Assembly (NCBI GenBank): GCA_951812525.1
Contig: OX638316.1
Span: forward strand, 4,706,506 to 4,770,505
Direction: 5' to 3'
Origin: an uncultured Poribacteria bacterium
GTDB lineage: Bacteria > Poribacteria > WGA-4E > WGA-3G
DNA: 64,000 nt
In this document: in pieces, positions 1,329 to 15,239 of the stretch
Layout of the letters: every line of letters begins with the position of its first letter
Numbering within the stretch: the stretch's first letter is position 1
The notes under the pieces: generated by a model
Databases searched by the model: none
Seen by the model: only the letters and a program-made list of their open reading frames with translations
Told to the model about the DNA's origin: nothing
Program-made: the position numbers and the translations under genes

Positions 1329-2291
1329 CTAACGCCTGTACGTCCCACTGCTTTTCAGATACCTATAAAGATCACTATCGGTTGTTAGAATAAGCTTCGT
1401 ACGCTCACCCGTCGTTTGTCTATAGGTCTCTAAGGTTTGGATAAACGCGTAAAACTCCGGGTCTTGACCGTGTGCTTCGGCATAGATTTGGATCGCCTGC
1501 GCGTCTGCATCGCCTTTAATCTGCTCGGCTGCCTTATACGCCTCAGATTGGATCCGCTCTAACTCCTTCTGTTTTTGTCCCATGATGTCCGCAGCTTCAC
1601 CCGCACCTTCAGATTTGTACTTTTCCGAAATGCGTTGCCGTTCTGAAATCATTTGGTCAAACACCTTTTTACGGACCTCGTCTACATAATTGATGCGTTT
1701 TATCTGAACATCAACGAGTTCAATACCGTATTGCGGAACTGTCTCCTGTACTTTCTCAAGCATCATGCGTGTAATACGTTCCCTGCCAATCTGAATCTCT
1801 TCCAACGGCTCGCCGGCTTGTCCCTCCTCATCCTCAAGGGCTTCCAAATCAAGATCTAAGACGCGATTTGAATCCCGCACAACTTCAATCAACAGTTGGG
1901 CTGTCACTAAATCCCGCGCCGCCGAATCAATAATGTCATCCAAACGCGACTGGGCAAACTGTTCTGTTCCCAAGGCTTGATAAAATTTGAGAGCGTCTTT
2001 AATACGCCACCGCGCCGTGGTATCCAGCCAGATGAACCTCTTGTCCTTCGTTGGAACCTGGTTCGGCGACCCATCCCATTCAAGCACTCGCTTCTCAAAG
2101 CGATGCACCTGTTGAATGAATGGCGTTTTTATTTTTAAACCTGCAGTGACGACCGGTTCTCCAACAGGACGACCGAATTCGGTAATGACTACCTGCTCAC
2201 CCTCATAAACGGAATAGAACATCCCCATAGCAACCGGAACGGCTAAAACTACAACGATAATCAGGATTATCAGTATATTTTTCGATTTCAT
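1329..2291 (-). CDS. hflC: HflC, membrane SPFH-domain modulator of FtsH
   Basis: The product (320 aa) has one N-terminal membrane helix (about residues 5-27) followed by an SPFH/band-7 domain with the typical VYEGEQVVITEFGRPVG start and a charged helical C-terminal part containing ERQRISEKYKSEGAGEAADI. In known bacteria HflC pairs with HflK, forms a large periplasm-facing assembly and restrains the membrane protease FtsH. It follows hflK by about 20 bp in the same direction, so the two are co-transcribed and probably translated together. A purine-rich AAAAGGAGCC lies just before the ATG. Length and domain order are normal for the family. Confidence 0.95.
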   Translation of the reverse strand: MKSKNILIILIIVVVLAVPVAMGMFYSVYEGEQVVITEFGRPVGEPVVTAGLKIKTPFIQQVHRFEKRVLEWDGSPNQVPTKDKRFIWLDTTARWRIKDALKFYQALGTEQFAQSRLDDIIDSAARDLVTAQLLIEVVRDSNRVLDLDLEALEDEEGQAGEPLEEIQIGRERITRMMLEKVQETVPQYGIELVDVQIKRINYVDEVRKKVFDQMISERQRISEKYKSEGAGEAADIMGQKQKELERIQSEAYKAAEQIKGDADAQAIQIYAEAHGQDPEFYAFIQTLETYRQTTGERTKLILTTDSDLYRYLKSSGTYRR

Positions 2292-2313
2292 CAGAGGCTC
2301 CTTTTTAAGTCTA

Positions 2314-3282
2314 TTATTCCTTCAGTTGTAGAAACGGGATAGGCGAGTTCGCATCTCCATCAATAACATAAATCTCTTTGACCTGCGGTAAAATCTCTCG
2401 CATCGCTTCCAAATAGAGGCGGCGGCGTGTGACCTCTTTCGCTTTCTCATACTCCGAACGAATTGCCTTGAACCGATCGGCATCGCCTTGTGCCTCGTTC
2501 ACCCGTTTCAGGGCGTAGCCTTGTGCCTCCGAAATCTTTTGTGCTGCCAACCCTTTCGACTTAGGAACGGATTGGTTGTAATCGCGCCACGCTTCATTGA
2601 TGAGACGCTCCTTCTCCTGCTTCGCCTCGTTAACGGCGTTGAAAGCAGCTTTTACTGCCTCCGGGGGATTTACATCTTGTAGCGTCACTGTCGCAACATC
2701 CAAACCCGTCTGATACAGATCCAGCAGTCGCTGCAAATCCATTTCAACTTCCGCAGCAATTTCAATACGACCGATAGTCAGCACCTCAGTGACTGTCCGA
2801 TCTCCAATGATCCGGCTCATCACGGATTCTGTAAGGTCACGTAAGGCACGCTGCGGATTCCTCACGGAAAACAGGAAATTTTTTGGGTCCTTGATTTTAT
2901 ACTGGACGACCCATTCAACATCGGCGATGCTCAGGTCACCCGATAGCAGAAGCGACTCGTCCGAGTAGTCACGGGTATCATACTGCGTCCGAATACCTGC
3001 ACGCAGCGTCCGAAAACCGAACTCTTCTTTAAAAACCTTTCGGACAGGAACGTTAATGGCTCTCTCAATACCGAGCGGTAACTTGAAGTGGAGTCCAGGT
3101 TCGGCTTGGCGGACAGATTTGCCAAACATCAGTACGACTGCTATTTCGTCTGCTTCAACGGTATAATAACTGGTGGCTAAGGACGCTAAGATGATTATAC
3201 CGAGAATTACGTACAACACACGTTTGGGAGTGATAAGTCGTGTGTACGGATACTGTGCAGTCCATTCATGGAGTTGTTGCAC
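2314..3282 (-). CDS. hflK: HflK, membrane SPFH-domain modulator of FtsH
   Basis: The 322-aa product has a membrane helix at about residues 22-42 (VLYVILGIIILASLATSYYT) and an SPFH domain with the HflK-type phrases EAMREILP near the C-terminus and LQDVNPPEAVKAAFNAVNEA in the middle. It is the first gene of the hflK-hflC pair. The known role is to form, with HflC, the complex around FtsH that controls membrane-protein turnover. The glycine- and proline-rich N-terminal extension of enterobacterial HflK is absent here, which is usual outside Gammaproteobacteria. An AGGAGA motif precedes the ATG. Confidence 0.95.
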   Translation of the reverse strand: MQQLHEWTAQYPYTRLITPKRVLYVILGIIILASLATSYYTVEADEIAVVLMFGKSVRQAEPGLHFKLPLGIERAINVPVRKVFKEEFGFRTLRAGIRTQYDTRDYSDESLLLSGDLSIADVEWVVQYKIKDPKNFLFSVRNPQRALRDLTESVMSRIIGDRTVTEVLTIGRIEIAAEVEMDLQRLLDLYQTGLDVATVTLQDVNPPEAVKAAFNAVNEAKQEKERLINEAWRDYNQSVPKSKGLAAQKISEAQGYALKRVNEAQGDADRFKAIRSEYEKAKEVTRRRLYLEAMREILPQVKEIYVIDGDANSPIPFLQLKE

Positions 3283-3393
3283 AAGAGTTCTCCTTTTTTA
3301 GTTCTGCGAATAATTTAAGGAAGTATACTGTAATCAACATTTGCAATGATAGCGTATCTCGCCGAAGCTGTCAAGGAAAAGTATTGTGGGTTT

Positions 3394-3534
3394 AGGATCA
3401 TTCAATTTTACAACAATTTATATCCGGACGCCCGAACTTGTTCGGGACAATGCATGCAACCCGAATAAATTCGGGCGTCCATCAACAGAAATCCTTTACA
3501 TAGGTAAACTTATTTCCTAAAACTAAATGACCCT
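3394..3534. mobile_element. MITE-like element, copy 1 (degenerate left end)
   Basis: The right end AAAACTAAATGACCCT matches the ends of the 149-bp copies at 58686-58834 and 61210-61358, and the left end AGGATCATTCAATTTTA is a degenerate inverted match. The interior holds a long inverted repeat (GGACGCCCGAA at 3426-3436 with TTCGGGCGTCC at 3470-3480) and a nested hairpin CCCGAAC-TT-GTTCGGG. It fills most of the 314-bp gap between hflK and hsdR. It has no coding capacity. Confidence 0.6.
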
Positions 3535-3596
3535 GTCGTGGGTTAACTGTTGGGGATTGGCAGGATTCGGCAGGTGAAAATCGCCGTTAGAACCCC

Positions 3597-6560
3597 TCAC
3601 ACGGCGGAAGACGATTGCTCAAGATACGCGCGATAGAGACGTTGCTTGATGTCAGCATTAATTTCCGGTTTCGATAATTTCGTATAGAGTTCAAGTTTGT
3701 TATTGACGAAATCCAATAAAATTTCATCAATCACCTGATCAAACTTATACCGTTTGTTGGTCTCCGTATTATCCCCGTCAATCACCTGTCGCAATTCTTC
3801 GTTTTCGCGCACTTTTCGGTGAATGGTCTCAATGTCAACTTTATCTTCCGTTGTGAACTCCGTCTGATAAGCATTGTTCAGAGCATCAATGATATTGGAG
3901 AGGTAATCCTGCTCAGGTTCCCTCAAGGGAGCGACCTCGCTGCCGAACCCTTCAACCTCGCTATCGTTCTTTTCAAGTGAAAGTTGTAGACTGTCATGCG
4001 TTTTCTGTACACGAAATGAATCCAAGTCCACAGACTCAAGGACACCTTGCAGGTCTGAGTGCTCCCGTTTCGGAAGCTTCTTGTTGAGACTGCGACCAAA
4101 GATATACAACTTTTCCAACGCTACATCGGTGAAGGTAATCAACTGTGAGATGTATCCGTAGAGCCGAATATAACTTTGTAAGGAAGAACGAAACTCCTCC
4201 CTGTCACCTGTTTCAAGCTCTGACCACCGCTCGACAACGCGATCGAGGATGCCTTGTAGCGATTCATCTGGACGACCTGCTTCGTAAAAAATGAGGCAGA
4301 AACGATCAATGGTATCCGCCTCATAGAGGTCAAAATTCTCCAGCTGGTCCTGTAGGTCGTACAACCGATTCGGGTCGGTCTCCTCGGCGAGCGATGTGGT
4401 CTGATAGTATTGCTGAAACGCTTCCTGCACCTGATCGGGTTCATTCACAAAATCGAGTACCAGCGTATCGGTTTTCCCAGCAGCGACGCGGTTCAGGCGA
4501 CTCAAGGTCTGGACGCATTGGAGCCCGTCCAACCGCTTATCGACGTACATTGTCTGCAGCATCGGCTCATCGAACCCCGTTTGGAACTTGTTGGCGACAA
4601 TCAGGATACGATATTGCAGACTCTTGAAGGTGTCTGCAATCGAAACACCCGGTGGCAAGTTATTCATCCCGTTTTCAGTGTAGTCCACCCCGTTGTCGGT
4701 GTCGTGAACGGTGCCGCTGAACGCTACCAGACAACCGTAGGGAAACCCCATTTCCCGCATTTGTCTATCGAACTCCAACTTGTATCTGACACAGTGCAGT
4801 CGGGATGAGGTGACCAACATCGCCCGCCCATTTCCTCCGATTGTCTTTGATGTTCGTGCTTTGAAGTGTTCAAGGATAATCCGTGTTTTGGTCTCAATAC
4901 TGTGCGGTTGTAGGTCAACGTAATTGGTGAGTGTTCGGAGCGTCCGTGCCTTCTCGTATTCTTTATCCTCCGGGACGCTTTTGACCAGTTCAAAATATCT
5001 CTTAAAGGTGGTGTAGTTTTGTAGCACGTCCAGTGTAAAGCCTTCACTGATACTCTGGCGCATCGAATAGACGTGGAACGGGAAAAATTTACCTTCGTCG
5101 TCCTTCCGTCCAAAGAGTTCTAAGGTTTTGTTTTTTGGTGTGCCGCTGAAACCAAAATAGGAGATATGATCCTGCATTCTGCGCTGTTCCATCTCCTCAA
5201 GGATCCGAGCATCTATATCCGATACTTCGTCGGCATCATCTTCCGTTGTCTCTCCCTCAATCCCTTTCGAGAGCGAGGCTCTGAGGTTTTTCGCCGACTC
5301 ACCGCTCTGCGAGGAGTGCGCTTCGTCGATAATCACGGCGAAGGTCTTGCTTCTGAGTTTGCCAATCTCCTCAGCAATCACACTGAACTTCTGAATCGTC
5401 GAGATGATGATGTCTTTGCCTAATTCAAGGAAACCCCTGAGTTGTGCCGAATCCTTATCAGCCGCATGAACCACACCCTCGACCTGTTCCACCTGCTTAA
5501 TCGTCTCCCGAAGCTGCCTGTCAAGCACGCGCCGATCAGTCACGACGATCACGGAGTCGAAGATCCGATTTGTATCCGTCCGAGAGCGGTACAGATGCGT
5601 TAGCAGATGCGCCAACCACGCGATGGAGTTTGATTTACCGCTCCCTGTGGTGTGTTGGATGAGGTAGTTGTTCCCAACACCCTTCGCAAGGATATCTGCT
5701 TTCAATTCACGAATCACGTCAAGCTGATGGTATCGCGGGAAAACGAGCACGCCGTGCTTCTCATCTTTCACTTCACCAATTCTGGAATCGTAAACCTTTT
5801 CTGTGGTCTCCTGCTCGTGAATAAAGTTGTTGATTAACTCCATCAGGTTATTGGGGTGTAGGATGTCCTCCCAGAGGTAGGCGGTCTTGTGACCTTCCGG
5901 GTACACTGGATTTTCGATATCCTTGTTGAACGGAAAGAAGCGTGTATTGCCTCCTTGCAATCGGGTTGTCATTGAGACCTTCTCGTTGCCCACCGCAAAG
6001 TGAACCAGACACCGTTTGAATTGCAACAACGGTTCTCTCGGATCGCGATCTGTTCGGTACTGTTTCTCAGCATCTGTCACCACCTGACCGGTGAGGCTGT
6101 TCTTTAGCTCCATTGTTATCAGTGGCAGACCGTTGAGGCACAACACCATATCGAGCGAATTTTCGTTCTGCTGTGAATACTTGAGCTGCCGAATTAGGGA
6201 GAATCGGTTCTGTTCGTATAGCCATTGATGGTCGGGGTTCATGCCACTTGAGGGTTGGAAGTAGGTTAAGTCAAAGGAACAGCCGCGATCCTTAACGCCT
6301 TTCCGCAACACGTCCAGTACTCCACGACGCTCAACCTGGTTGCTGATACGGAGCGTGAGTTTCTGCGGTGTCTCTTCTCCGTACTGGCGTTCGAGTCTCT
6401 GATACGCCTTCGGTTGGGTTGCCCGTATAAATTGCAATACCTCATCGGGTACAAGGCAGAAGTATTTATCGTAGTCAGTAGGTTGCAACGAGGAGTAGCC
6501 CGACTGATTCAGGTGTTGTTCGATGTGTTCTTCAAAATTTTCTTCGGTATACCTCGGCAT
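3597..6560 (-). CDS. hsdR: Type I restriction enzyme, R subunit
   Basis: The 987-aa product is the ATP-dependent translocase and nuclease of a type I restriction system. An N-terminal nuclease region carries the PD-(D/E)xK-type phrase NGLPLITMELKN (about residues 143-154). The helicase core shows Walker A HTTGSGKSNSIAWL (about 305) and the DEAH box AVIIDEAHSSQSGE (about 412), plus FGFSGTP and LIVANKFQTGFDEP-like motifs of the second RecA domain. It is the last gene of hsdM-hsdS-hsdR, starting 3 bp after the hsdS stop. The frame is intact and of ordinary length, so the nuclease is probably active. Confidence 0.96.
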   Translation of the reverse strand: MPRYTEENFEEHIEQHLNQSGYSSLQPTDYDKYFCLVPDEVLQFIRATQPKAYQRLERQYGEETPQKLTLRISNQVERRGVLDVLRKGVKDRGCSFDLTYFQPSSGMNPDHQWLYEQNRFSLIRQLKYSQQNENSLDMVLCLNGLPLITMELKNSLTGQVVTDAEKQYRTDRDPREPLLQFKRCLVHFAVGNEKVSMTTRLQGGNTRFFPFNKDIENPVYPEGHKTAYLWEDILHPNNLMELINNFIHEQETTEKVYDSRIGEVKDEKHGVLVFPRYHQLDVIRELKADILAKGVGNNYLIQHTTGSGKSNSIAWLAHLLTHLYRSRTDTNRIFDSVIVVTDRRVLDRQLRETIKQVEQVEGVVHAADKDSAQLRGFLELGKDIIISTIQKFSVIAEEIGKLRSKTFAVIIDEAHSSQSGESAKNLRASLSKGIEGETTEDDADEVSDIDARILEEMEQRRMQDHISYFGFSGTPKNKTLELFGRKDDEGKFFPFHVYSMRQSISEGFTLDVLQNYTTFKRYFELVKSVPEDKEYEKARTLRTLTNYVDLQPHSIETKTRIILEHFKARTSKTIGGNGRAMLVTSSRLHCVRYKLEFDRQMREMGFPYGCLVAFSGTVHDTDNGVDYTENGMNNLPPGVSIADTFKSLQYRILIVANKFQTGFDEPMLQTMYVDKRLDGLQCVQTLSRLNRVAAGKTDTLVLDFVNEPDQVQEAFQQYYQTTSLAEETDPNRLYDLQDQLENFDLYEADTIDRFCLIFYEAGRPDESLQGILDRVVERWSELETGDREEFRSSLQSYIRLYGYISQLITFTDVALEKLYIFGRSLNKKLPKREHSDLQGVLESVDLDSFRVQKTHDSLQLSLEKNDSEVEGFGSEVAPLREPEQDYLSNIIDALNNAYQTEFTTEDKVDIETIHRKVRENEELRQVIDGDNTETNKRYKFDQVIDEILLDFVNNKLELYTKLSKPEINADIKQRLYRAYLEQSSSAV

Positions 6561-6563
6561 GGT

Positions 6564-7802
6564 CTAAACCTCGCTTCGGACATCAATTTTGCCTGTTACC
6601 GCTTCGGAGATGAGGGACTGACGGTATTCTTTAAGGAGTTCAATTTTTCGGCGTTCTGCGGCAATCAGTTCGTCAATCTGTTTGTTTTTATACTCTAAGA
6701 AATTGACGATTTGGTGTTGTTCTCTAAATGGAGGCGTTATAGTGAACATACTAAAGAATGCATCAGGGTACAATCTCCATCTGGAATGCCAAATCCCTTT
6801 CGACCAACGTATAATTTCCTTGACATGATTTGGAGTACGATAGAGATAATCGTAATATCTTGGCAGGTATTCATCACTTTTTAATTCGTAAACATTGTAG
6901 GAAGGACTTACAATTCCGTCAAACGTTGAAATACCTAATGCCCCCATCCATGCCCACATTGTATTAATAACCAGATTCCCCACAGAACAATGTTTGTATC
7001 CTTCCAGAGTTTCAGCTAGAAACATACCAACATTCTTTTCTGCCCTTGGAGAAACCCCGGTAATATGTGATACTGTCAGCAATTCTTCCTTTCCAGTCGT
7101 TGACCTATCGTCTCTTTGATTGAAAATACGTTTATTTCTTCTCACTTCCCAATGCTTCGGTATCTCCCCAATCCACTCCACGCCCGACGGCTTCATCTCC
7201 ACATTCGGGTCAAGCCCCTTCGTCACTGCCTGATTTATCAGTGTGGTGCGTTGTTCCTGCAGCAGTTCTATCCGTCGTTCTTTGATGCGGATGAGCTCGT
7301 CAATCTGTTCGGTTTTGCGGTCGAGGAAGTTGACGATAGCGCGTTGTGTAGGGAATGCAGGGCACGCCACTGAAAATTCACGTAGATACCTATAGTGTCG
7401 GTTGTAACCCTTATTTGGGATTTTAAGATTCAAAAGTGCGTAGTAAAAAAAACGAGGGTTTAAAATGTCATCGTTTGGATAAAGAAGTTGCGTTCCGTCA
7501 GCACCAAGGGTAAATGGAAAATCGACATACTTGAAAATACGAGTATGATCACCAAAAACCACGACAGGCAAATTATCAGAGATGACAGAGTTAGTAAAAT
7601 CTGTCCAACCTGCAATAAATGATGCGCCTTGGTCAATTACCGGAAATTCACCAGATTCTTGATAGTCCATTTTCGGAATTGACGTTTTTTTCTTGGTTTT
7701 AACCTTTTTCAGACAATGCGTAAAAGGCAAAATTTTCCAATGCTTCGGTAACTCTCCAATCCACTCCATACCACTTTCTTTATATTCAGGATAACGTCTC
7801 AT
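6564..7802 (-). CDS. hsdS: Type I restriction-modification specificity subunit
   Basis: The product (412 aa) has the two-fold HsdS plan. Each half starts with a target-recognition domain headed by W-I-G-E-x-P-K-H-W (residues about 14 and 209) and ends in a conserved helix, QIDELIRIKERRIELLQEQR in the first half and QIDELIAAERRKIELLKEYR in the second. It recognises the bipartite DNA target for methylation and cutting. Its ATG overlaps the hsdM stop by 4 bp (ATGA). The two recognition domains differ clearly from each other, so the target should be an asymmetric bipartite site. I see no second or partial hsdS nearby, hence no sign of a shuffling locus. Confidence 0.96.
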   Translation of the reverse strand: MRRYPEYKESGMEWIGELPKHWKILPFTHCLKKVKTKKKTSIPKMDYQESGEFPVIDQGASFIAGWTDFTNSVISDNLPVVVFGDHTRIFKYVDFPFTLGADGTQLLYPNDDILNPRFFYYALLNLKIPNKGYNRHYRYLREFSVACPAFPTQRAIVNFLDRKTEQIDELIRIKERRIELLQEQRTTLINQAVTKGLDPNVEMKPSGVEWIGEIPKHWEVRRNKRIFNQRDDRSTTGKEELLTVSHITGVSPRAEKNVGMFLAETLEGYKHCSVGNLVINTMWAWMGALGISTFDGIVSPSYNVYELKSDEYLPRYYDYLYRTPNHVKEIIRWSKGIWHSRWRLYPDAFFSMFTITPPFREQHQIVNFLEYKNKQIDELIAAERRKIELLKEYRQSLISEAVTGKIDVRSEV

Positions 7803-9544
7803 AACCCCAACACCTCATTCAGCAAGCCTTCGCTTTTCCGTTCAAGATCCAGCATTTCCTCGGCAATCTCCTTGAGTGACCGCAGCGGCGTGTACTGATA
7901 GAAATACTTGTTAAAGTTAATTTCATAGCCCACCTTATCCTTCTTCCTATCCATCCAACTATCAGATAGGTGCGGTTTCACTTCCCGTTGGTAGTAGTCA
8001 TCTACCTCCTCTGTGAGAGGAACGCGCTCATAGTCTCGCAGCTTGGTATCCGGTTTCGGATTGCCCCGCTTGTCCGTGACAACGACCTCCGTCTCCTCAC
8101 CCAAAATCTCCTGCTTTTCGACCAGCGGTCTCTCAATTGTCACTTTCGTGAATCCGAAAAAGTCGTTTGGATAGATTTTGGAGTGTTCGGTCTCTTCAAA
8201 GTTGGTGTACTGCTCCACTATTTGACGGATATCCCCATCGGAAATGAAAGCATTCTTGTCTCCGAGATTCCTTTTCATATCGTCGTGGAAGTCAACAGCA
8301 TTAATCAGTTGTATTTTACCTTGTCGTGCCTCCGACTTTCGATTCGTTAAGATCCAGATATAGGTGGAAATACTGGTGTTGAAAAAGAGTTTCTCAGGCA
8401 AGGCAACAATACACTCCAGCCAGTCGTTTTCGATGATCCAACGTCGGATTTCACTCTCACCACTGCCTGCATCGCCTGTAAAGAGCGGCGATCCGTTAAA
8501 GACGATGCCGACCCGACTCCCGCGATCCTCCATCTTGGAGAGTATATGTTGCAGAAACAGCAACGCCCCATCTGAGGAGCGAGGTGTCCCAGCAGAAAAT
8601 CTACCGTAGGCGTTCTGCGCTTCCGTTTTTATCACCGCTTCATCAGACTTCCAACTGACACCGAAGGGCGGATTCGTTATCATGTAATCGAAGCGTTCGC
8701 CTTGAAATTGGTCATTAGAGAGACTGGATCCGTGTCGGATAGCACCCGGATTTTCACCTGTAATTAGCATATCCGATTTGCAGATTGCGTAGGTCTGTGC
8801 GTTCAACTCCTGACCTAACAGTCGAATATCAGCTTCGGGATTAATCTGTTCGCGGAAGTATTCCTTCCCGATTGTCAACATGCCGCCTGTCCCGCAACAC
8901 GGATCGAAAATACTGCGGATAACGCCTTGACCGCGCAGGTCTTCACGGTGTTCGGCGAATAGGAGCGAGACCAATAACCGCACGACATCCCGTGGCGTGT
9001 AGTGTTCCCCACTGGTTTCATTGGACATCTCCGAGAATCGGCGGAGCAGCTCTTCAAAGACCTGTCCCATTGTGTGGTTGTCTACCTTATTTGGGTGTAG
9101 ATCGACTTCGGTAAACTTATCGCAGAAGATAAAAAGCCGATCATTTCTGTGTAGCCGCTCAATAAATCCATCAAGGTTGAAGTTTTCGATGATGTCGCGG
9201 ACATCTTGACTGAACCCGTTGAGGTAGTTCTCAAAGTTGAGATGGATATTGTTCGGGTCTGCTTTCAGTCGAGATAGGTCGTACTGGGAGGTGTTGTAGA
9301 AGCTGGTATTTGTTTCTTTCAGGATAATTCGGGGTAACGCTTCTTCTGGTACTTTGTCCTTAAACCGGTTGTAGGTATTGATGGCTTTTTCTTTTCGTCC
9401 GTCTTCGTCTAAGATGCAGTCTAATCGGCGGAGCACGAGGAACGGGAGGGTGATGTCGCCGTATTCGTGGGGTTTGAAGAGTCCTCTGAGTACATCATCG
9501 GCTACAGTCCAGACGAGATTTGCCAGTTCTTGATAATTCGCCAT
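7799..9544 (-). CDS. hsdM: Type I restriction-modification methyltransferase subunit
   Basis: The 581-aa product is the N6-adenine methyltransferase subunit. An N-terminal helical HsdM domain is followed by the AdoMet-binding motif IFDPCCGTGGML and the catalytic motif NPPFG (in DYMITNPPFGVSWK). The phrase SGEHYTPRDVVRLLV is typical of HsdM. It is the first gene of the operon, with an AAAGGAAAC site before the ATG, and it overlaps hsdS by 4 bp. The C-terminal coiled segment (EEMLDLERKSEGLLNEVL) probably contacts HsdS. Confidence 0.97.
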   Translation of the reverse strand: MANYQELANLVWTVADDVLRGLFKPHEYGDITLPFLVLRRLDCILDEDGRKEKAINTYNRFKDKVPEEALPRIILKETNTSFYNTSQYDLSRLKADPNNIHLNFENYLNGFSQDVRDIIENFNLDGFIERLHRNDRLFIFCDKFTEVDLHPNKVDNHTMGQVFEELLRRFSEMSNETSGEHYTPRDVVRLLVSLLFAEHREDLRGQGVIRSIFDPCCGTGGMLTIGKEYFREQINPEADIRLLGQELNAQTYAICKSDMLITGENPGAIRHGSSLSNDQFQGERFDYMITNPPFGVSWKSDEAVIKTEAQNAYGRFSAGTPRSSDGALLFLQHILSKMEDRGSRVGIVFNGSPLFTGDAGSGESEIRRWIIENDWLECIVALPEKLFFNTSISTYIWILTNRKSEARQGKIQLINAVDFHDDMKRNLGDKNAFISDGDIRQIVEQYTNFEETEHSKIYPNDFFGFTKVTIERPLVEKQEILGEETEVVVTDKRGNPKPDTKLRDYERVPLTEEVDDYYQREVKPHLSDSWMDRKKDKVGYEINFNKYFYQYTPLRSLKEIAEEMLDLERKSEGLLNEVLGL

Positions 9545-9690
9545 GCGTTTCCTTTTCGTTAGGTTATGTTTATTACATCGTGATTTGTGTTGTGGATGGG
9601 AAATCTATCCTAACCACGTTCAATGTATTAAAATAATAACAAGTTTCAAGAAAAAATCAAGCCAAAATATCAAATGGGTACCCACAACCC

Positions 9691-9718
9691 CGGTGAAGTC
9701 CATACGGACTTCATACCG
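9691..9718. repeat. Hairpin GAAGTCC-ATAC-GGACTTC
   Basis: A perfect 7-bp stem with a 4-base loop is flanked by a further 4-bp pairing CGGT/ACCG with a two-base bulge. No T-run follows on either strand, so it does not look like an intrinsic terminator. It may be a diverged relative of the other hairpin repeats of the window. Confidence 0.5.
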
Positions 9719-9725
9719 TTGATTC

Positions 9726-9760
9726 AACCCACAACCCACAACCCATAACCCAAAACCCAC
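9726..9760. repeat. Heptamer tandem repeat, AACCCAN x5
   Basis: Five consecutive 7-mers read AACCCAC, AACCCAC, AACCCAT, AACCCAA, AACCCAC. The unit length is the same as in the other heptamer loci of this window although the sequence differs. Confidence 0.85.
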
Positions 9761-9999
9761 CAGTTTATCAGAAACAGCTGAAGCTTCAATGACACCTTTA
9801 GGCAAATAGACGCAGCGAAACCCAACAACAACACAAAGAACGCCTGAGAATGTATACCGTTGCCAACATACACGCTTAGGTCGAACGCACGCTAAGGCAA
9901 ATTTTCTTGTGTATGGGAAACCAAATTTGGAGTTCTATTCTATAGGAAAGTGAATTCGCGCCGGGTTGGGAAGTCGGGATCGGGAAGGAAAAGCACAAG

Positions 10000-11373
10000 C
10001 TAAGGATTTGTGCTCGATTCTCTCAGTCTTGTTTTGATGTGTTCTGGTAAGTCAATACCATATTCCAGGGTATATTCCTCAAGATGACGCAATAAAACTT
10101 CAATACCTTCTTCATCTTCCAGTTCTATCCACTTTTTATAGTCTATAATCGCAAGATTTTCTTTACCTTCTTTCAGGTGAAGCGTGCCTCTATCGCGATA
10201 GAGTATAGCAGTATCGGGTTTCAGCTCTATTGCCCTATTATAATCAGTAAGTGCCATACTAAACATGCCTGTTTTAAAGTAGTGGCACGCTCTCGCATGA
10301 CAGAAATCACATTCGATTACATGATTACCGGGTTTCAACTTCTTCGCTTTGCTAAAGTCTGCGAGTGCCGGACTCAGCCCGCCTGTTTTAAAGTGAGCGC
10401 GGCCTCTAGCATGATAGAAATCGACATTATCATCGGAACTCAGTCTTATTGCCGTACTATAGTCATCAAGTGCATTCTCAGCATCGCCAATTTCATAGTG
10501 AAGATTACCGCGATAGTAATAAGAATCAACATTATCAGGATTGAGTTCTATTGCCATGTTATAATCTTCAAGTGCCTGATCAAAATTGCTCATTTCAAAG
10601 TGAAGACGACCGCGATCTCTATAACCTTCAAAAAAATCAAGTTTCTGTCCAATGGCTCTGGCATAAGCGTCAATAGCTTCCGTATAAGACCCATGGTCTT
10701 CATATTCCTTGCCCTCGATCCATTCTATATAAGATGCCTGGTCCCACGCCAACGACTGAATATATCCGTGGATGTCGTCGTAGACACGTTTGGTAGATAT
10801 ACCGTGGAACCTTTGTAGATAGAAGAGTATGCCTCGCTTGAGGTATTTTGGAATTTCGACTACGTCGTAGTGTTTTGAATCAATAAAACCGTTAGTGGGT
10901 TCAACGAGTACGCTTTTCTGAGAGGCGGCGCGATTAATTATTGAGGGCATTTCCCTGACAGTGTAGTCCTCAGTTGATTCTTTACTCAATAAGATAATTC
11001 TGCCATCTTTGTCATGGGCACGGTCACAAGCGAAGAAGAGTGCTATGAGATAGTCAGTCGTAAAGTCTATGAGGTTTGTTTTGCCACCGTAGTGTTGGAT
11101 TTGTGCAAGTATATTAAAATCTGTGGTATCGTTTAAATACTCTTCAGCTCTCTTTGAAATCATCTCTTGCATTTTCCTAAAAACGTTAACCGGGTTCTTG
11201 ATTCCAAGCTTCTGACCATAGACGCGATAGAGACCTGAGGAAACCTGCCCATAGCATTTATTAGACTCACCTCGATAGATACGTCTATGGTTCTCTTGGG
11301 CTTTCTGCTCAATCTCTTGCAAAATATCGCTTATACTTATGACTTGGAAATTAGATTGGTCTGTTTTGTTCAT
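10000..11373 (-). CDS. FRG-domain protein with C-terminal TPR repeats
   Basis: The 457-aa protein begins with an FRG-type domain. The name-giving motif appears as IYRGESN (residues about 32-38), and a second typical block reads LIDFTTDYLIALFFACD (about 126-142). From about residue 228 to 440 there are six TPR units of the kind YYRGNLHYEIGDAENALDDY. FRG domains have no settled biochemical function; they recur in accessory and defence-type loci, and TPRs usually bind partner proteins. The ATG lies inside the end of the upstream coiled-coil gene (4-bp ATGA overlap), so the two are translationally coupled. The position 0.45 kb from hsdMSR suggests a defence role, which is inference. A retained catalytic residue cannot be assigned because the FRG active site is not established. 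Confidence 0.8.
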   Translation of the reverse strand: MNKTDQSNFQVISISDILQEIEQKAQENHRRIYRGESNKCYGQVSSGLYRVYGQKLGIKNPVNVFRKMQEMISKRAEEYLNDTTDFNILAQIQHYGGKTNLIDFTTDYLIALFFACDRAHDKDGRIILLSKESTEDYTVREMPSIINRAASQKSVLVEPTNGFIDSKHYDVVEIPKYLKRGILFYLQRFHGISTKRVYDDIHGYIQSLAWDQASYIEWIEGKEYEDHGSYTEAIDAYARAIGQKLDFFEGYRDRGRLHFEMSNFDQALEDYNMAIELNPDNVDSYYYRGNLHYEIGDAENALDDYSTAIRLSSDDNVDFYHARGRAHFKTGGLSPALADFSKAKKLKPGNHVIECDFCHARACHYFKTGMFSMALTDYNRAIELKPDTAILYRDRGTLHLKEGKENLAIIDYKKWIELEDEEGIEVLLRHLEEYTLEYGIDLPEHIKTRLRESSTNP

Positions 11374-12581
11374 TTGCTTTTCCTTTGACGGCGATTTGGG
11401 TGGGTCGGACCCGGATAACGTAACGTGTACCCCAACTTCTGAAGGTTATTGATCATTTTAGTAATCGCTGCCGCTTCCTGATGCTTACCTGTGCTCTTCA
11501 ACGAATTGACTAAGTCTTTCATATACCTGAGCATATCTGTGACAAAAGTATCAAGGTTTGACGGGCCTTGTGTTGTGCTTTCCGCACTGACTGTTTGTGG
11601 CAAGGTGTCTTCGATGCCGGTTTGAGCTTTTGGTACAAATGGCAAGAGACTTATCCCTTCAACCGGCATACCAGTCTCAGAAACTTCGGGTGCCACACTG
11701 GCGGGTTCAACCGATCTGATAATATCGTCTGATCCAACTGGATCCCATCCATCAACTTCCTCATCAGCTTCGGTGGCAACATCAAGTATGTCCCCGAGAT
11801 CACCTAAGATGTCAATTAGTGCTAAACCCGGGATGAAAGCTAAAGCGACACCGAGACCTCTTCTAACCAGTCTCTGCCTTGCTTTACTCTTAATATCTTC
11901 ACTGAAATCCTGATAGTTATCAAGGAGGTCATTGTATCTGTTAGCCAGACTCCGGTATTCTTCATCTAAACCTTTGGAGCGATCAAGTTCACGCCGAAGG
12001 GCAATCCCACATGCCTGTAGCGATAACGTAGATAGATAGAGAAGCTGGATGGCGTTGTTGTTACTCTGAGCCACCTGCTGTAGTTCGGTTTCGAGTTCTG
12101 TACTGCGCTGTTCTTCCGCTTTCAGTTTGCTATCGAGTTGTGTACTAAGCCGCTTTGCATCATTCCGTTCACTCTCGAGTTGTGCGCTGCGCTGTTCTTC
12201 CGCTTTCAGTTTGCTATCGAGGTCTGCGCTACGCTGTTTTTCCGCACTCAGTTTGCTATCAAGGTCTGCACTACGCTGTTTTTCCACAGTCAGTTGGGTA
12301 TCAAGTTCTGCGCTGTGCTGTTTTTCCGCACTCAATTGATTATCGAGGTCTGCGCTGCGCTGTTCTTCCGCTTTCAGTTTGCTATCGAGTTGTGTACTAA
12401 GCCGTTTTGCATCATTCCGTTCACCCTCAAGTTGTGCGATACTTTGTTTTGCCGCATCTCGTTCACCCTTAAGTTGCGTGTTCAGTCGGTCTGCCGCGTC
12501 CCGTTTCTTTTTTAGACCTACACCCCATATCAAGGAAGCAGCCAATCCTGCTATCAAAACAATAATGATGCCAATTTCCAT
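11370..12581 (-). CDS. Membrane-anchored coiled-coil protein with 14-residue repeats
   Basis: The 403-aa product has one N-terminal membrane helix (residues about 3-21, IGIIIVLIAGLAASLIWGVG) followed by a basic KKKRD, which places the rest in the cytoplasm. Residues about 36-165 are made of 14-residue units such as LDSKLKAEEQRSAD and LDNQLSAEKQHSAE, two heptads each, encoded by near-identical 42-bp DNA repeats. A second hydrophobic stretch LVRRGLGVALAFIPGLALIDIL follows at about 237-258, and the C-terminus is helical and basic. I recognise no enzyme domain. It is the first gene of the pair with the FRG-TPR protein. AGGAG lies 9 bases before the ATG. A sensor or membrane scaffold for the FRG partner is a guess. 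Confidence 0.75.
   Translation of the reverse strand: MEIGIIIVLIAGLAASLIWGVGLKKKRDAADRLNTQLKGERDAAKQSIAQLEGERNDAKRLSTQLDSKLKAEEQRSADLDNQLSAEKQHSAELDTQLTVEKQRSADLDSKLSAEKQRSADLDSKLKAEEQRSAQLESERNDAKRLSTQLDSKLKAEEQRSTELETELQQVAQSNNNAIQLLYLSTLSLQACGIALRRELDRSKGLDEEYRSLANRYNDLLDNYQDFSEDIKSKARQRLVRRGLGVALAFIPGLALIDILGDLGDILDVATEADEEVDGWDPVGSDDIIRSVEPASVAPEVSETGMPVEGISLLPFVPKAQTGIEDTLPQTVSAESTTQGPSNLDTFVTDMLRYMKDLVNSLKSTGKHQEAAAITKMINNLQKLGYTLRYPGPTHPNRRQRKSK
12120..12500 (-). repeat. 42-bp in-gene repeats encoding 14-residue coiled-coil units
   Basis: The DNA repeats the theme TTTGCTATCGAG...GCTGCGCTGTTCTTCCGC every 42 bases (read on the plus strand), several times in near-identical form (12182-12224, 12350-12390 and others). 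Because 42 is a multiple of 3, copy-number change would lengthen or shorten the coiled coil without breaking the frame. Confidence 0.8.
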
Positions 12582-13844
<1,263 letters not shown>

Positions 13845-15239
13845 ATGGATACAGCGATTGTTCTCGCCGCAGGATTAGGACGTAAGGTATGGCCCTACGG
13901 GGAATTTCGACAGAAATGTACGATTCCCGTTGCCAATACACCGATCGTTCGCCGACTCGTGGAGAGTTTGGTGGAAGCAGGATGTCAACGCATCCTCGTT
14001 GTGGTGGGGCATCACGCCCAACAGGTACGTGGTGCCATTGCTGACCTGCCAAACGTCGTTTTTGTGCCACAAGACTCTCCCGATGGCACTGCAAGCGCGG
14101 TGCTGACCGCCTCAGCGCATCTCGAAGACCAACCCTACCTCGTGGTTCATGGTGACATTGTAACCGCCCCAGATAATCTCCGTAATTTCATTCAAGAATT
14201 CCGTTCGTCTAACGTAGAAGCCGCAGCACTCGTGCAACCGCTTGGCAATGAAGACGCAAGCAATTGGCTTTGTGCGGGTATCGGCACAGAAGCAGCTGAC
14301 AACGAAAGTGTTTCAACGCTCACAGGTATCGAGGGACACCCGCGTGGTGGTTCACATCGGCTCTGTGGTGTGTATGCCTTCCGTAGTAGTGCTACCTCTT
14401 ATCTCTTAAGAAACCCGGGGATTGTTACAAGAGTTCCTGTCGGTGGAATGCCACCCCCTGAATCCGAAATTGCCCAATCTTTGCAACTTATGATTGACGA
14501 AGGAAAAACCGTGTTAGCTGTCCAAACATCGGACTTTCTTGTCGATGTTGACAAGCCGTGGCACGTGTTGGAAGCAAACCATCGATTGGTTGATTATCTG
14601 GCGAAACAGGTCACGGAGAACCAGGTTGCTGAGGGAGCTAAGATTTCAGATGCCGCTGAGATTAATGGACATGTCGTTTTAGGGAAAAACTCTGTGATTG
14701 GTCCCCGCGTCGTGGTGAATGGCACACTCATCGCAGGTGCGAATAATAACATTACAAACGGTGCGATCTTACACGGAAATATTCTCGTCGGAGATCAGTG
14801 CAGGATTAGCGATTATTGTGATGTGGGAAGCAGTGCTATTGGAAATCGGTGTATTATTGGGCACGGTGCTGAGATGTCAGGCGTGCTGTTTGATAAGGTT
14901 TATCTCTACCACTACTGCGAGATGTCCGGGGTTTTCGGATGTGCTACGGATATCGGTGCTGCGACGGTGTGTGGAACGCTTCGATTCGACGATGGGGATA
15001 CGCGTATACGCGTGGAGGGACGTTCCGAGGTGCCGTCATACGGGTCAAACTCAACGTATATGGGTGACTATTGCCGGACTGGTGTGAACGCGATTATTAT
15101 GCCGGGTAGACGCATCGGTTCTTATAGTGTTGTTGGACCTGGGGTTATTTTATACGACGATGTTCCGAGCAAAACGATGGTGATGGCGAAACAGGAGTTG
15201 ATTACTAAACCGTGGGGACCGGAGCGTTATGGATGGTAA
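13845..15239 (+). CDS. GlmU-like sugar-phosphate nucleotidyltransferase with beta-helix domain
   Basis: The 464-aa protein has an N-terminal nucleotidyltransferase domain (IVLAAGLGRKVWPYGEFRQK, residues about 5-24; HGDIV metal-binding Asp near 103) and a C-terminal left-handed beta-helix with hexapeptide rungs (ISDAAEINGHVVLGKNSVIG and similar, about 265-450). Such enzymes activate a sugar-1-phosphate with UTP or another NTP, and the C-terminal part may transfer an acyl group. The usual GlmU LxxGxGTRMxSxxxK motif is altered to LAAGLGRKVWPYGEFRQK, with the second Lys kept, so the exact substrate is uncertain. It starts at the base after the bioD stop, with a weak GGAAAT site. Confidence 0.75.
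   Translation: MDTAIVLAAGLGRKVWPYGEFRQKCTIPVANTPIVRRLVESLVEAGCQRILVVVGHHAQQVRGAIADLPNVVFVPQDSPDGTASAVLTASAHLEDQPYLVVHGDIVTAPDNLRNFIQEFRSSNVEAAALVQPLGNEDASNWLCAGIGTEAADNESVSTLTGIEGHPRGGSHRLCGVYAFRSSATSYLLRNPGIVTRVPVGGMPPPESEIAQSLQLMIDEGKTVLAVQTSDFLVDVDKPWHVLEANHRLVDYLAKQVTENQVAEGAKISDAAEINGHVVLGKNSVIGPRVVVNGTLIAGANNNITNGAILHGNILVGDQCRISDYCDVGSSAIGNRCIIGHGAEMSGVLFDKVYLYHYCEMSGVFGCATDIGAATVCGTLRFDDGDTRIRVEGRSEVPSYGSNSTYMGDYCRTGVNAIIMPGRRIGSYSVVGPGVILYDDVPSKTMVMAKQELITKPWGPERYGW

Follow-up and report, generated by a model that had tools for sequence, protein, structure and literature searches.

An overlapping FRG-TPR and membrane coiled-coil gene pair, a candidate defence module in a hotspot of Poribacteria

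Introduction

Is a two-gene unit that lies beside a type I restriction-modification (RM) locus in a Poribacteria chromosome a defence module and, if so, what would each of its two products do? The question is raised by a stretch of 64,000 nucleotides (hereafter the window) from a 5.06-Mb genome contained in one contig, in which a gene for a membrane coiled-coil protein precedes and overlaps one for a protein combining an FRG domain with TPRs. FRG is already catalogued as a phage-defence candidate under the PADLOC entry PDC-S15, itself an unproven candidate. Here we consider the anatomy of the two genes, the chromosomal site that they occupy and the company kept by their homologues across the phylum, and we weigh the possible roles of the pair against each other.

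The Gene Pair and Its Products

Both genes are encoded on the minus strand, the coiled-coil membrane protein (11370-12581, 403 aa) being followed by the FRG-TPR protein (10000-11373, 457 aa), and they share the four bases of an ATGA start/stop overlap (11370-11373). A purine-rich stretch lies 5' of each start codon (AGGAG and AAAGGAAAAG). The open reading frames agree in this with the original prediction, which had described a two-gene unit with a 4-bp overlap.

The N-terminal FRG domain and the six TPRs that had been proposed for the second protein are confirmed by Pfam, with a match to PF08867 (E 5e-16, 59.7 bits against a cut-off of 25; 62.9 bits for the FRG model in a whole-genome search) and about six TPRs C-terminal to it (PF00515, E 8e-32). 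The FRG-type domain spans approximately residues 9-226 and the TPR array residues 208-420, while the PDC-S15 model matches with an E-value of 3.8e-24 and its best stretch, residues 7-134 of 457, covers the FRG part only. The AlphaFold2 (AF2) model of the protein has a mean pLDDT of 90. Judged by its invariant residues the FRG domain is intact, as all nine columns that are invariant among 54 homologues are kept in the alignment, and the changes at near-invariant sites are an arginine at residue 31 (usually Y) and a leucine at residue 156 (usually F). Conservation among the homologues reaches 97% for R34, 89% for D103 and 94% for S154. The protein thus resembles the FRG family (PF08867, PDC-S15) in having a clear domain with every family-invariant residue and in its genomic company (RM, TIR, CRISPR, AAA ATPases), but it differs in the TPR array fused to the domain and in the overlapping membrane coiled-coil gene in front. 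In five other loci (L104, L126, L131, L115, and L119) FRG and TPR are encoded by separate genes overlapping by 8-32 bp, which supports a functional link between the two domains.

The coiled-coil protein carries hydrophobic segments (Kyte-Doolittle) at residues 3-21 (2.59) and 242-260 (2.01), and its coil consists of 14-residue repeats that derive from a 42-bp tandem repeat (about seven copies in 12091-12391). Hydrophobicity and DNA repeats therefore bear out the membrane anchor, the repeated coil and the second hydrophobic patch that had been read in this protein, although a weaker third segment at residues 177-195 (1.51) had been overlooked. Pfam returned no family beyond a chance-level match to Tht1, and no match to SLATT or any other membrane-effector model, whereas the weak PADLOC matches were to coiled-coil proteins. 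In the AF2 model (pLDDT 57) the long helix alone is credible. According to the positive-inside rule, the charges after a membrane helix mark the cytoplasmic side, and the KKKR that follows the N-terminal helix suggests that the coil is cytoplasmic.

The bioD-hflKC Defence Hotspot

The site at which the pair resides, between bioD and hflKC, is a genus-wide defence hotspot of Poribacteria. Among the 20 relatives sampled (L074-L093), three have contigs too short to tell (L077, L083, and L087), and in all 17 of those with enough contig the bioD-hflK interval holds type I RM genes, CRISPR-Cas genes or RM remnants. The hsdM gene is found at the site in 10 relatives, together with hsdS and hsdR wherever the contig extends far enough, and CRISPR-Cas genes in six (L082, L084, L086, L088, L089, and L091). 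The latter are of type I-D in L082 and L091, as recognized by the Cas3d and Cas10d models, and the other four have the same gene set by inspection, while L093 retains an HsdS-like fragment. Across the window (1329-15239) and the relatives, the occupant of the site is a type I RM locus whose cargo varies or, alternatively, a set of CRISPR-Cas genes. The cargo among the relatives' hsd genes includes a bSEFIR/TIR protein, a HEC-03B-like AAA ATPase and an Argonaute-associated REase-PNTD protein. The last is encoded between hsdM and hsdS (L078:5179-8039, minus strand; PADLOC E 7e-155) and adjoins a gene that may encode a short Argonaute. Two genomes carry beside hsdS a protein of about 810-840 aa (MNNIRVDIRLRPIRFGFLVRPDD...; L085:8360-10879 and L092:7222-9654), for whose copy in L092 neither Pfam nor PADLOC gave a match.

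In the window, an insert of about 3.4 kb between bioD and hsdM (9675-13097) carries the pair. By blastn against the loci of the 20 relatives, the DNA of the window is similar at 9001-9557, at approximately 9623-9674 and again from approximately 13098, with no similarity in between. Two relatives, L085 and L080, have near-empty sites in which the gap between bioD and hsdM is shorter than 200 bp. Given this break in similarity and these short gaps, the pair is cargo that entered the site next to a type I RM locus of greater age. The latter comprises hsdM, hsdS, and hsdR (3597-9544, minus strand; ORFs, Pfam, PADLOC), an older resident of the hotspot that is context for the pair and not part of the module.

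The original prediction had placed the pair beside hsdMSR on the same strand, which is correct, but a single transcription unit is unlikely, since 455 bp separate the pair from hsdM and a conserved element lies 5' of hsdM (9623-9674, minus strand), with a promoter-like TTGATT-16-TATTAT. The element is kept in relatives that do not have the pair, and the pair therefore probably lies outside the hsd transcription unit; the promoter-like match toward hsdM in these relatives likewise makes hsdMSR probably independent of the pair's transcript. Moreover, hsdMSR is conserved in relatives with other cargo or none, and the pair is not a conserved component of the type I RM operon.

FRG-TPR Genes Across the Phylum

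The FRG-TPR proteins are a large paralogous family whose members mostly occur alone or with other partners. A search with the FRG-TPR protein gave matches in 85/85 genomes, many of them through the TPR part alone, and the FRG model located 45 sites in nine near-complete genomes, i.e., about five per genome. Counting the methylases among the matches listed, an N6-methylase lies within 5 kb of 9 of the 45 sites, against 1.4 expected from circular shifts (0/5000 as high), and of 8 of 39 FRG clusters when each cluster is counted once (1.2 expected); the cut-off of the methylase listing bears equally on the observed and the expected values. At 20 kb the values, for the same listed matches, were 11 sites against 5.6 (p 0.04) and 8 clusters against 4.6 (p 0.09); the excess of N6-methylases near FRG is confined to short range. 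A broader survey of neighbours gave a weaker signal: type IIG RM models matched 4/117 FRG neighbours and 0/96 control neighbours (Fisher p 0.13), and most FRG neighbours are not recognisable as defence genes.

The source genome has three other FRG-TPR genes. One adjoins the gene of a HEC-05-like DUF262 protein, the second lies beside a DprA-like/phosphoribosyltransferase pair matching PsyrA/ShosA and PsyrT (PsyrTA/ShosTA-like), and the third is found beside a CRISPR-like array of 10 repeats with a spacing of 72-79 bp (L007:7030-7765), with no cas genes noted across the surrounding 18 kb. The immediate partners of FRG genes on the same strand include TIR-like proteins, DNA methylases, RecF/SMC-like ATPases, separate TPR proteins and trypsin-TPR proteins (names partly by inspection), so varied that FRG-TPR genes must be said to have many different partners. 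Hydrophobic N-termini were found in 5/40 of the partners and in 83/274 control genes, and a membrane partner was consequently rejected as a general feature of FRG. Very large FRG-TPR genes (886-1758 aa; L061, L105, L106, and L112) overlap a RecF/SMC-like ATPase gene by 4-7 bases, and in L061, L106, and L112 a methylase/RM-like gene of about 1230-1250 aa lies upstream. This three-gene arrangement is recurrent and is conserved better than the pair in the window.

The original prediction looked to the FRG-TPR homologues for company of either the coiled-coil gene or defence genes: the former is mostly absent, yet defence genes are near more often than expected. Its broader claim, a defence-type locus with the FRG protein as candidate effector, is upheld by the hotspot, the methylase/RM enrichment, the neighbours of the other FRG-TPR genes and the PDC-S15 listing; the abortive-infection-like action that it proposed stands as a hypothesis. 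The pair, swappable cargo of the hotspot, is probably a defence module, though the pairing as such is rare.

Discussion

Whether the two genes constitute a unit is a separate matter. The coiled-coil family, by a profile search of 85 genomes, has five members, all in Poribacteria: that of the window and those of G021, G029, G066, and G084. In G084, of the same genus as the window genome, the homologue measures 272 aa with a short coil, and a 405-aa FRG-TPR gene follows 85 bp downstream on the same strand, in the order and orientation of the window. No FRG neighbour was present in the regions fetched from G021, G029, and G066 (the G029 contig begins 91 bp before the gene), and the surroundings in G021 are housekeeping-like. 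An FRG gene thus adjoins the coiled-coil gene in 2/5 members, window included, and the pairing is counted as seen twice, in the neighbourhoods of the window and G084. Outside these two genomes no pairing was detected in the other genome contigs, in the collection of plasmids or in a single scan of viral sequences. Likewise, relatives of the coiled-coil protein were found neither in GTDB contigs (bar G084's own record; two short patterns of low sensitivity), nor in viral contigs (one scan with a single protein as query), nor in the plasmid collection, the sensitivity of these searches being limited. The N-terminal helix and core hydrophobic segments are common to the family, although the last segment is not seen in the L094 member, and the length of the coil varies, which suggests that the coil serves as a spacer. 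Four further matches of the profile (L096, L097, L098, and L101) were set aside as family members, since by inspection only the coil is shared and a methyltransferase-like domain is fused to it. They represent a separate Poribacteria family with an N-terminal membrane helix, a coil and an apparent SAM-methyltransferase domain (L096:6603-7973, L097:5530-6816, L098:6400-7719, and L101:5947-7311), adjoined by an AlkB-like gene in 3/4 cases.

The combination of coiled-coil and FRG-TPR proteins as an established unit is hence not sustained, given a large FRG-TPR family usually devoid of the coiled-coil partner and a coiled-coil gene beside FRG in two of five genomes, and the pair is at best weakly indicated as a conserved unit. 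Such a distribution is what would be expected if the FRG-TPR protein alone were the defence effector and the coiled-coil gene were incidental on the same insert, coupled to it by compact packing: FRG-TPR homologues mostly lack the partner, three of the five coiled-coil homologues lack an FRG neighbour, and the two FRG proteins paired with coiled-coil proteins are not sisters in the tree. Co-descent of these two was indeed rejected on the tree, weakly, as both have long branches. A lone effector would nonetheless leave the ATGA overlap in the window to packing, and the divergent second neighbourhood in G084, with the same order and orientation, to chance, which is unlikely, because, at about five FRG genes per genome, a random neighbour would be FRG in about 0.2% of cases, i.e., about 1% for one match among four homologues (rough estimate). 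We consider this explanation unlikely, though it is the alternative to be taken most seriously.

The reading that we favour, tentatively and with a probability approaching even, is that the FRG-TPR protein is an ART-like effector, NAD+-consuming or ADP-ribosylating, whose tethering or regulation at the membrane falls to the coiled-coil protein; the two roles are both inferred. In the AF2 model R34 lies on strand 31-36 and D103 on strand 102-105, while Q152/S154 start strand 154-159, and this order of strands and residues (R34 on the first strand, D103 on the second, Q152-x-S154 at a later one) resembles the ART core. A published analysis places Frg in the ART superfamily and proposes that it might act as a NADase in prokaryotic immunity (PMC9503650), and active-site Arg and Ser residues have been reported for RES-family NAD+ phosphorylases (PMC11535050). 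The likeness to the RES toxins MbcT/NatT and to DarT consists of an Arg on the first core strand, a similar order of strands and helices and a Ser residue conserved at a late strand. However, no sequence similarity was revealed by hhalign of FRG with the DarT and RES alignments, where the positive control (DarT vs. RES) was also unmatched, no residue obviously corresponds to the canonical ART glutamate and no classical catalytic Glu motif was seen, nor is there an antitoxin gene that belongs to a known family. Poribacteria have too few RES and KptA proteins to build deep alignments, the lists of Foldseek/VIA matches of the AF2 model were filled by the TPR part, and the FRG profile matched none of 177,635 distinct PDB sequences at E up to 10. 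As structure, PDB-sequence and profile searches did not confirm the fold, the ART-type identity of FRG is suggested by the literature and by the consistent anatomy of the model. DarT-type ART genes are present in 42/83 Poribacteria genomes, where tandem copies are frequent (L165-L194).

According to the favoured reading, the pair would be a compact cargo module with the FRG-TPR protein as its effector. The FRG domain, of ART-type fold, would consume NAD+ or ADP-ribosylate a target on sensing infection, with the TPR array binding the trigger or keeping the enzyme in check. The N-terminal helix would anchor the coiled-coil protein in the inner membrane, the coil facing the cytoplasm, and through contact with the FRG-TPR protein the coiled-coil protein would tether, gate or regulate it there, while the ATGA coupling could fix the ratio of the two proteins. 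That they form a new two-component anti-phage system, in which an FRG-TPR enzyme depletes NAD+ or ADP-ribosylates a host target and is positioned or gated by the coiled-coil protein at the membrane, seems doubtful.

The pair might also be a signal-and-pore system, the FRG-TPR protein making an NAD+-derived signal and the coiled-coil protein acting as the membrane-damaging effector. A precedent exists in nucleotide-related effector domains paired with predicted pore-forming SLATT membrane proteins (PMC7159879), in which an enzyme-like gene similarly adjoins a small membrane protein, and the core hydrophobic segments, common to the coiled-coil family while the coil varies, would suit such a role. 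Nevertheless, the coiled-coil protein differs from those systems in having one clear N-terminal helix, a long coil and no SLATT or membrane-effector match, and it is found also without the enzyme; moreover, its inner segments are moderately hydrophobic (1.4-2.1), the second of them is not seen in L094, and AF2 gives them no confident fold. This arrangement appears improbable.

Equally improbable is a housekeeping or stress module unrelated to defence that happens to occupy a variable chromosomal site. TPR proteins are very abundant in Poribacteria genomes, some FRG-TPR partners have no defence annotation (the trypsin-TPR proteins and, by inspection, a cytochrome-like protein), and the literature searched contains no FRG protein with shown anti-phage activity. 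Against it are the patchy distribution, the position in the hotspot, the association with methylases and the occurrence of FRG domains in numerous plasmid sequences (226 PLSDB records). Finally, the position beside hsdM on the same strand, together with FRG genes adjoining type IIG RM genes elsewhere, might indicate that the pair serves the neighbouring type I RM system as an accessory, e.g., as a guard triggered by RM inhibition, an idea rendered very improbable by the relatives that keep hsdMSR with other or no cargo and the promoter-like element of hsdM without the pair.

Conclusions

FRG domains are widespread, on plasmids too; the prediction for them is a role as NAD+-using immune effectors, but no settled biochemical function was found. 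The pair described here offers a compact test case of two intact genes, for which named residues and a confident model of the FRG-TPR protein are at hand, and, if the two-component system were true, the biochemical function of an FRG protein would become definable and the protein would have a membrane partner dedicated to it. In addition, defence systems can readily be sought at the bioD-hflKC site, in a phylum that is associated with sponges and largely uncultured.
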